Source of the DNA: Candidatus Gastranaerophilales bacterium
GTDB lineage: Bacteria; Cyanobacteriota; Vampirovibrionia; Gastranaerophilales; Gastranaerophilaceae
DNA length: 35,474 nucleotides
Direction: 5' to 3'
Assembly: GCA_944325635.1 (NCBI GenBank)
Contig: CALVBD010000011.1
Location: 1-35,474 of the forward strand
Shown here: piece by piece, positions 24,579-26,080 of the stretch
Layout of the letters: the number at the start of each line of letters is the position of its first letter
How positions within the stretch are numbered: the stretch's first letter is position 1
Made by a program: the position numbers and the translations under genes
The notes under the pieces: model-generated
Told to the model about the DNA's origin: nothing
Seen by the model: the letters and a program-made list of their open reading frames with translations, nothing else
The model's database searches: none

Positions 24579-24607
24579 AAAAGAGGGTTTTTTTAAAACC
24601 CTCTTTT
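24579..24607. terminator. bidirectional terminator
   Basis: Perfect 13-bp arms AAAAGAGGGTTTT (24579-24591) and AAAACCCTCTTTT (24595-24607) flank TTT. It closes the plus-strand paralog pair and the minus-strand pilin-like gene, whose TAA (24606-24608) falls inside the stem. Confidence 0.9.
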
Positions 24608-25392
24608 ATTTACATTTGGTTTTACCGTTCCAGCTTAAGTCATTGCAGTGAAGGTAATCCATATTTTCGTTATAAATTACCCAGGCTGTACAGCCTCTCC
24701 CCTCGTGGTTTTTTGAATCCCTGCAGCTTGTATTGAAATTACCTTCCTGTTCTGTGCCTGCCGGTATCAGACGTGTTTTTGTTATATGAAATGTAAAAAC
24801 ATCACGGCCCATGGCATTTGGAGGTTTCGTTCCATTGACATCAATTCTGTAAAAACCGCATACATCTTTTATTTTACCTCTACTTTCCGAGCAGTCCGTA
24901 CTTTCGACAAAAGTTAAAATATTTGCACCATCTGCAAGAATAGCTTTTGAATAACGTCTCTGGTCTTCGTGCTTATTGAAGCCTGAGCCGTTCAGTGCAT
25001 TGCTATTAGTCCAGCAGCCTTCAGCTTCCCCTCCACAGTATTTTGTTATTTTCAGGTATTCTCTCATATGATAGAGAAAATTGTTTGTGTCACTAACTTT
25101 ACTATTTTCGGTATTAAGATTATCGACAAGCCCCCATAAATCAGGCGTGCCTTTGTCTTTTACCGCCATTAAATATGCCTGCTGCATAACAGAATAATTT
25201 TTCTTTAATTTTGTTACAATGACTTTTTCCTGTTGTCGTTGTATAAGAGTCGGGAGGGTCATCGCCGCCACAACCCCGATAATTCCCAGTGTAATCAACA
25301 CTTCAGCGAGTGTGAAGCCTGAAAATCGTTTGCTATAGCGGGTTAAGCCCCCCCCCCCCAGAATGTTTTAAAGCTATTTCAATCTTTTGCAT
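24606..25392 (-). CDS. type IV pilin-like / pseudopilin, out of frame here at a poly-G tract
   Basis: The prepilin signature GFTLAEVLITLGIIGVVAA is exact: a Gly before the cleavage site, Phe at +1, Glu at +5 and a hydrophobic helix. The mature part has several Cys and a globular C-terminus of about 200 residues. The only start with a ribosome binding site (GGAGG just before the ATG at 25392) leads into the leader MQKIEIALKHSGG, then a run of 12 G. With 12 G the frame shifts and stops at TAG a few codons later. With 11 G (or 14) the leader joins the signature in frame, giving 261 residues with a 25-residue basic leader. As written the gene is off. Either the tract varies between cells, or it is a sequencing error. 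It would be secreted and cleaved by the prepilin peptidase. Confidence 0.85.
25348..25359 (-). repeat. 12-base poly-G tract in the pilin leader
   Basis: Twelve consecutive C on the plus strand (G on the coding strand) lie 33 bases after the pilin ATG. In so AT-rich a genome a run this long is most unlikely by chance. Slippage by one base would switch the gene's frame. Confidence 0.85.
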
Positions 25393-25410
25393 AGTTCCTC
25401 CTTTTTTCTA

Positions 25411-25419
25411 ATTATAACA
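25411..25419 (-). promoter_or_regulatory. extended -10 promoter of the pilin-like gene
   Basis: On the minus strand TGTTATAAT (TG, one base, TATAAT) lies about 20 bases before the pilin ATG, with a GGAGG site between. The -35 at 17 bases is poor, so it is an extended -10 type. Confidence 0.55.
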
Positions 25420-25444: not shown

Positions 25445-26080
25445 CTATGTCGTTAAATCAATAAAATGTTCCTTTTCGCCGACAGTTGTGAGTTTTAGTT
25501 TGTTTAGATTTTTTGTGTCAAACTGGTATATATTGGCGGATGAAAAGAACGGCGGACGATTTTTGCCTTGATAGTGTATAATGTATTCATCATAGTTTTT
25601 ATTAAAAAATTTTTCCATTACGGGGCGGATTTTTTCGAAAATATTATTCACGCAAGGTTTAAGTTTGCCTTCGTCCATATAGCCCGGCACATTGAAGAAA
25701 AGCTTCGGTCTTTGAGTTTTGTCTATAAAGTAATCATAAGTTTGCAGTTGTTTTTCAAGAGAGGACGCCTGCAAATCTTTTGAGACGGGAAGCGGTGTGT
25801 AGTGCGAAAGCACTGCAATCGGACAGCCGTCTTTACCTTTCATAACAACTCCGACAGCATTACAGCTTGCAAGTCCGTCCGTGTAAATGGTATTTATCTT
25901 ATCAGGCAAAATTCTTACGGCCTTGCACTCATTCATTCCGACCTGAACAATATTCTTGTCACCTTCGCGTATCTTTTTTGCCAGAACCATTTCCGGCATG
26001 TTATTGACCGAGTTTTTGTTTTCGGCTGAAAGCTTTGACAGCTTCGGCAGAACTTTTCTTGTTAAATTTGTTATAGACAC
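25445..26080 (-). CDS. CheD-like protein, possible glutamine deamidase
   Basis: The 211-residue protein has the CheD pattern in its first half: VQVGMNECKAV, then TDGLASCNAVGVV, then VLSHYTPLP. In CheD, the catalytic triad is Thr, Cys and His in T-x-G-L-G-S-C and A-H-x-M-L-P. The equivalents here are Thr67, Cys73 and His93. CheD deamidates glutamines in chemoreceptors. The C-terminal 110 residues (for example PKLFFNVPGYMDEGKLK and FNKNYDEYIIHYQGK) do not match CheD, so the substrate may differ. No chemotaxis gene is nearby. Its ATG is at 26080. The pilin-like gene lies next to it on the same strand. The assignment rests on motif reading and is moderate. Confidence 0.55.
   Translation of the reverse strand: MSITNLTRKVLPKLSKLSAENKNSVNNMPEMVLAKKIREGDKNIVQVGMNECKAVRILPDKINTIYTDGLASCNAVGVVMKGKDGCPIAVLSHYTPLPVSKDLQASSLEKQLQTYDYFIDKTQRPKLFFNVPGYMDEGKLKPCVNNIFEKIRPVMEKFFNKNYDEYIIHYQGKNRPPFFSSANIYQFDTKNLNKLKLTTVGEKEHFIDLTT

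Follow-up and report, generated by a model that had tools for sequence, protein, structure and literature searches.

Slippage at short repeats is a known mechanism, and surface genes switched by repeat number are classical. In Neisseria, pilC, the gene of a type IV pilus tip adhesin, carries a poly-G tract close to its start, and variation of pilE comes from gene conversion with silent copies as donors. The poly-G sets of Campylobacter and Helicobacter consist mostly of glycan and surface-modification genes. These contingency loci form genome-wide sets with tracts inside the genes (PMC8355987, PMC2823697). The opa genes of Neisseria are a scattered multigene family of surface proteins; each of the about 11 genes has CTCTT repeats in its leader-coding part (PMC3745409), where the repeat restores or disrupts the frame. 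In Streptococcus gallolyticus, the sortase pili pil1 and pil3 are controlled by GCAGA repeats in a leader peptide, and the leader in turn controls a transcription terminator (PMC3894217).

The locus we investigated is a type IV pilin gene with a poly-G tract in its leader, one of many such genes in the same genome. In logic, the opa family is its nearest relative, as in both a repeat in the leader of each copy of a scattered surface-protein family would restore or disrupt the frame. However, the repeat here is a mononucleotide G tract, the copies number about 40 or more and encode type IV pilins in place of an outer-membrane protein, and by default the tracts are in the off register, with a bias to one side. 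The outer-membrane barrel and the pentanucleotide repeat that define Opa are absent from our genes, and what is shared is the leader repeat in a scattered family. The Campylobacter and Helicobacter loci are similar in having intragenic poly-G tracts of comparable length in a genome-wide set, and the tract-bearing sugar-modifying genes in our genome (RgpF, Stealth) resemble those phasomes; in contrast, the members here are nearly all prepilins that share a single conserved layout, and the genome has MutS1. As for pil1 and pil3 of S. gallolyticus, pilus expression would be set by the repeat number within a translated leader, but here the leader is the N-terminus of the prepilin itself and the pilins are type IV. 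The resemblance to pilC and pilE lies in the variation of type IV pili, with the difference that tract length would here switch whole pilin genes. What appears to be new is not the mechanism but its scale, its lineage and its default-off register: type IV pilins, dozens per genome, family-wide and usually off. We found no report of phase variation or of pilin repertoires in Gastranaerophilales in the open-access literature that we searched.

Gastranaerophilales are common gut relatives of Cyanobacteria, and to our knowledge almost none of them have been cultured. The window, that is the whole stretch of DNA analysed, comprises 35,474 nt and is one whole contig (C11) of a nearly complete genome of 2.0 Mb in 13 contigs; the homologous pilins come from Candidatus Gastranaerophilales MAGs. 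The pilin gene lies on the minus strand. A TATAAT sequence (25411..25416), its probable -10 promoter element, precedes an AAGGAGG ribosome-binding site (25397..25403), whose position is common to nearly all tract pilins. The start codon (ATG, 25392-25390) opens an 11-codon leader of 33 nt (MQKIEIALKHS, 25360..25392), which runs into a 12-G tract (25348..25359), the proposed slippage switch. The pilin reading frame 3' of the tract extends for 246 aa to its stop (24606..25346). With 12 G the two frames are not joined, and the ATG frame continues as CTT AAC CCG CTA and is closed by a TAG (25333..25335); 11 or 14 G are in frame, and with 11 G the ATG frame enters the pilin frame to give 33 + 11 + 739 nt, or 261 codons. 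The original prediction had placed an ATG with a ribosome-binding site at 25392, a 12-G run in the leader codons and a prepilin signature beyond it, with a TAG breaking the frame at 12 G and an open frame of 261 codons at 11 G, and the sequence agrees in each of these respects. It had also held that such a run is unlikely by chance. The tract is indeed the only G-run of at least 9 in the window, and dinucleotide shuffles of the window yield 0.03 nine-G matches on average and never four. In the pilin frame of this gene, no ATG, GTG or TTG occurs from the last upstream stop to the prepilin motif, so the prepilin signal can be reached only by translation through the tract. A GTG at 25301 sits within the motif, and a start there would drop the cleavage site.

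After the tract come the remainder of the prepilin leader (LTRYSKRFS), the motif GFTLAEVLITLGIIG (25319-25275), the mature pilin and the stop. The product has the prepilin cleavage/methylation motif [GA]FTLxE and the hydrophobic stretch of a type IV pilin, and matches PF07963 (26.2 bits against a cut-off of 21.2) and TIGR02532 (20.8 against 16.3). Its AlphaFold2 model (pLDDT 89) also has the expected shape, with a long N-terminal helix (residues 13-65, 53 residues) followed by strands that form a C-terminal globular beta head. The best fold match in the PDB, Neisseria pilin 1ay2, is weak (probability 0.35), so that the head is not a known one, and profile matches to PDB entries are confined to pilin N-termini. 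Adjoining the pilin gene upstream is a 211-aa ORF (25445-26080, minus strand) whose similarity to XopAK, a family of secreted effectors, is weak (NF041406, E 1.8e-7, 30.8 bits against a cut-off of 150); this ORF matches no Pfam family above cut-off. No RNA family or riboswitch was found in the window.

The genome contains 56 G-runs of at least 8, and about 40 of them are found at the same place in scattered pilin genes. The common layout consists of TATAAT, AAGGAGG, ATG, a leader of ~27-34 nt, a pure G run, 6-50 codons, and then [GA]FTLAEVLITLGIIG. Of 35 tract pilins, 31 have a perfect TATAAT some 19-55 nt from the ATG, as against 16% of shuffled upstream regions. The tract carriers represent about 40 of the about 55 pilin genes found in the genome, a count that is a lower bound because only retrieved pieces of the genome were read. 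The others, at least 15, are tract-free and have ordinary in-frame starts, mostly 3-12 residues ahead of the motif. The genome also encodes type IV pilus motor ATPases (four T2SSE matches above cut-off, the best with 423 bits). The tract pilins share several sequence properties with repeat-mediated phase-variable genes: a long pure repeat, far above chance, lies near the 5' end of the ORF, a change in repeat number breaks or restores the frame, and both states occur among the copies. The closest paralogue of the window gene in the same genome (L002, L068; G000:C3:41308) is about 51-54% identical; in this gene a long insert that resembles translated intergenic repeat separates the tract from the motif.

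The distribution of the tracts extends beyond this genome. Most members of the same family have roughly 10-120 G-runs of at least 9 per genome, whereas members of the other families of the order have 0-6. Among the relatives sampled (congeners and three other genera, each genome being a single assembly and most or all of them MAGs), the tract-pilin architecture is found throughout the genus and in other genera of the family, in well over 100 genes. The genome and viral contigs searched include other species only, and no second genome of the same species was found among them. The closest orthologue of the window gene, in G007, has a 74% identical protein and a 12-G tract that is likewise out of frame, whereas the next orthologue, in G009 (about 70%), has a plain in-frame ATG and no tract. 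A given pilin can thus acquire or lose its tract. As a separate observation, several loci in G021 (L287, L298, L300, L278 and L299) have repeat-like translated sequence between the tract and the motif that is common to several genes (e.g., SKLSRATSITPRATIELRSYARVERAT and RSRNKFGMT); the tract modules thus seem to have been joined to pilins via repeated intergenic DNA.

For each tract gene we computed the tract length, modulo 3, that joins the ATG to the pilin frame. Among 160 pilin tracts, only 15 are joined; 102 exceed the joining length by one G, and the remaining 43 are either one G short of it or two G over it. When lengths are shuffled among loci within genomes, 32.5 joined tracts (sd 3.7) are expected, and none of 20,000 shuffles gave a number as low as that observed. 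The paralogues are not independent, and the P values therefore overstate the case; with one gene counted per genome, length and frame requirement, 9 of 49 are on (P 0.016). Being out of frame is the rule in every well-sampled lineage. The side on which a tract departs from the in-frame length depends on its length: of the tracts with at least 11 G, 94 are one above the in-frame length and 9 one below, whereas of those with at most 10 G, 34 are one below and 8 one above (Fisher P 2e-17 over the 160 tract pilins, with paralogues not independent). The typical states, 11 G in this genus and in G015, 13 G in G021 and 10 G in G018, are each one slip away from being in frame. Furthermore, loci that would be in frame at the commonest length of their genome mostly avoid that length. 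Their tracts have 10, 12 and 12 G in this genome and 9, 9, 9, 11, 12, 12 and 12 G in G010, whereas 26 of the 32 other loci in this genome and 14 of 17 in G010 have the common length of 11. Paralogues with identical 48-nt downstream flanks differ by a single G and in state: in G010, L225 is off with 11 G and L242 on with 10 G, and in G021, L287 and L298 are off with 13 G and L300 is on with 12 G.

In 93 of 100 off pilins examined, the pilin frame contains no other start codon with a ribosome-binding site. Upstream of the tract, 71 of the 100 have no start in the pilin frame at all, and none of the 100 has one there with a ribosome-binding site; we therefore reject an alternative start codon as the true start, at least as a general rule. 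About 27 of the 160 tract pilins have an internal Met near the motif, and these may not be silent when off. Codon-position bias is absent from the leader (entropy 0.82, 0.96, 0.82), so codon periodicity fails as proof of its translation, which is indicated only by the ATG and the ribosome-binding site.

From these sequence patterns, we consider it probable that the window gene belongs to a large repertoire of type IV pilins subject to translational phase variation by DNA slippage. Each gene in the repertoire would be a scattered unit with its own promoter, ribosome-binding site, ATG, short leader and poly-G tract before the prepilin motif, and slippage of DNA polymerase would change the number of G by one and thereby join or break the frame. 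The usual state would be off, with long tracts (at least 11) one G above and short tracts (at most 10) one G below the in-frame length, so that one slip turns the gene on. This explanation covers the pure mononucleotide run, its position in the leader, the fact that most copies have no other usable start, the occurrence of both states, and the one-G differences between paralogues with the same flanks, and the sequence pattern for random single-gene switching is strong. We infer frequent slippage in living cells, a lack of product in off cells, and an effect of the switch on surface properties, be it adhesion or escape from phage or host. In a population, the majority of these pilins would be off in most cells, and at any one time a different pilin would be made by a few cells, one or few each, while the machinery and the tract-free pilins would always be present. 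The original prediction of a pilin switched by a poly-G tract stands as the best-supported reading, as about 40 genes share the design, but its suggestion that a pilus is turned on and off does not hold: given at least 15 tract-free in-frame pilins and the motor ATPases, the switch would change which pilin is made, not whether there is a pilus.

MutS1 is present in nearly all sampled genomes, including this one. Loss of mismatch repair thus does not account for unstable tracts and was rejected as the origin of their length; with MutS1 intact, slippage rates may be modest. Mutation appears to push the tracts toward the in-frame length, and selection would hold them off. In Campylobacter jejuni, an insertion bias at G8-G9 reportedly turns into a deletion bias at G10-G11 (cited in PMC4085013), and the link that we find between tract length and side fits this change. 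A toy population model in which the on state has a constant cost leads to short tracts and does not hold them at 11-13 G, and we rejected it on this ground. Selection must therefore fluctuate, with the on state sometimes favoured, for tracts to persist, in agreement with published work that likewise calls for fluctuating selection (PMC4085013). If these pilins, dozens in number, do switch, few families of a single protein type under repeat control would be larger, and each population would be a mosaic of pilus types. A default-off register that is one slip from on, along the mutational tendency of the tracts, would bear on how selection tunes contingency loci. The proposed repertoire also makes a clear prediction for existing metagenomic reads.

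The alternative that fares best, though we regard it as unlikely, is that the slippage is programmed: RNA polymerase or the ribosome would slip on the G run, the out-of-frame DNA would be the normal state, and every cell would make some of the pilin with its DNA unchanged. The out-of-frame register might then, with the same low probability, itself be functional, giving every cell a low-level mixture of dozens of pilins whose output is tuned by the stop and the run length. This would agree with the persistence of one G too many within the genus while lengths vary (10, 11, 12, 13), which suggests that the register and not the length is conserved there, and with the position of the stop, which lies a median of 2 codons past the tract in the one-too-many register and 7 in the other off register (P 5e-6). 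In 18 of 20 main-class loci this early stop is preserved through different stop codons and amino acids. However, in G021 the early stop is no tighter in either register, and no single direction of shift would serve all genomes (+1 in most of the genus, G015 and G021; -1 in G018 and most named loci). About 4-7 bases suffice for a ribosomal slippery site, whereas these runs consist of 9-17 uninterrupted G; slippage by RNA polymerase is known chiefly from A/T runs, and most well-sampled genomes contain in-frame copies.

A sequencing or assembly error, with true tracts one G different and the genes being in-frame constitutive pilins with glycine-rich leaders, is less probable still. Long G runs are hard to sequence, many contigs in G010, G015 and G021 start inside or next to a tract, on the same (minus) strand, and the G010 contig ends bear long artefact-like G/C stretches. 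Nevertheless, with one and the same in-frame length, some genomes would need an error of +1 and others an error of -1, across SPAdes, MEGAHIT and IDBA assemblies (the assemblers being judged from record names), and it would not be explained why about 40 genes have unbroken G runs at a common position if these runs had no function. For the window gene, the possibility that its 12 G are a misread 11 is not an obvious one, as the orthologue in G007 has the same length and is out of frame. At contig starts that fall at tracts (e.g., G010:C1:20 and C6:8; G021:C15:3 and C23:11), the assembly ends just after the G run has been read through.

We give little credence to leader-peptide attenuation similar to that of S. 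gallolyticus pil1, in which tract length would determine where the leader stops and thereby the transcription of the pilin, with no fusion of the two. In the common state the leader ORF does stop just past the tract, and in G018 and some named loci the pilins keep a promoter-like TATAAT, a ribosome-binding site and an ATG behind it. In most genes, however, no stop interrupts the pilin frame as far back as the tract and it contains no other start; tract and motif are often no more than about 9 codons apart, so that a terminator would not fit between them. The window gene, unlike the S. gallolyticus type, has no separate pilin start behind a terminator. Where the pilin has its own start behind the tract, as in G018 and some named loci, attenuation may apply, though not in the window gene. 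The idea that the out-of-frame genes are decayed copies, pseudogenes whose frames broke at a mutation-prone run, is hardly credible, for although the in-frame state is rare (15/160), the downstream frames are intact in nearly all genes and commonly encode 200-300 aa, the region from tract to motif, which lacks a separate start, has remained open, and promoter and ribosome-binding site are kept.

In several G018 loci (L393, L398, L403, L417 and others) and in L307 and L329, pilins behind tract leaders apparently retain start signals of their own, consisting of TATAAT, a ribosome-binding site and an ATG (..CYNGN..NGEFMKKHF/GFTLAEV); this ATG is in frame with the region behind the tract, and either product could be made. 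Tracts are also found in a few non-pilin surface genes of the genome under study. A leader with an 11-G tract precedes an RgpF-like rhamnan synthesis gene (L057, G000:C1:691937), which is off, and a leader with a 12-G tract precedes a Stealth-type sugar phosphotransferase gene (L074, G000:C5:55723), which is on. A 17-G run (L014 / L041, G000:C1:99926) is located ahead of a long exported-looking protein with Chlamydia PMP repeats.
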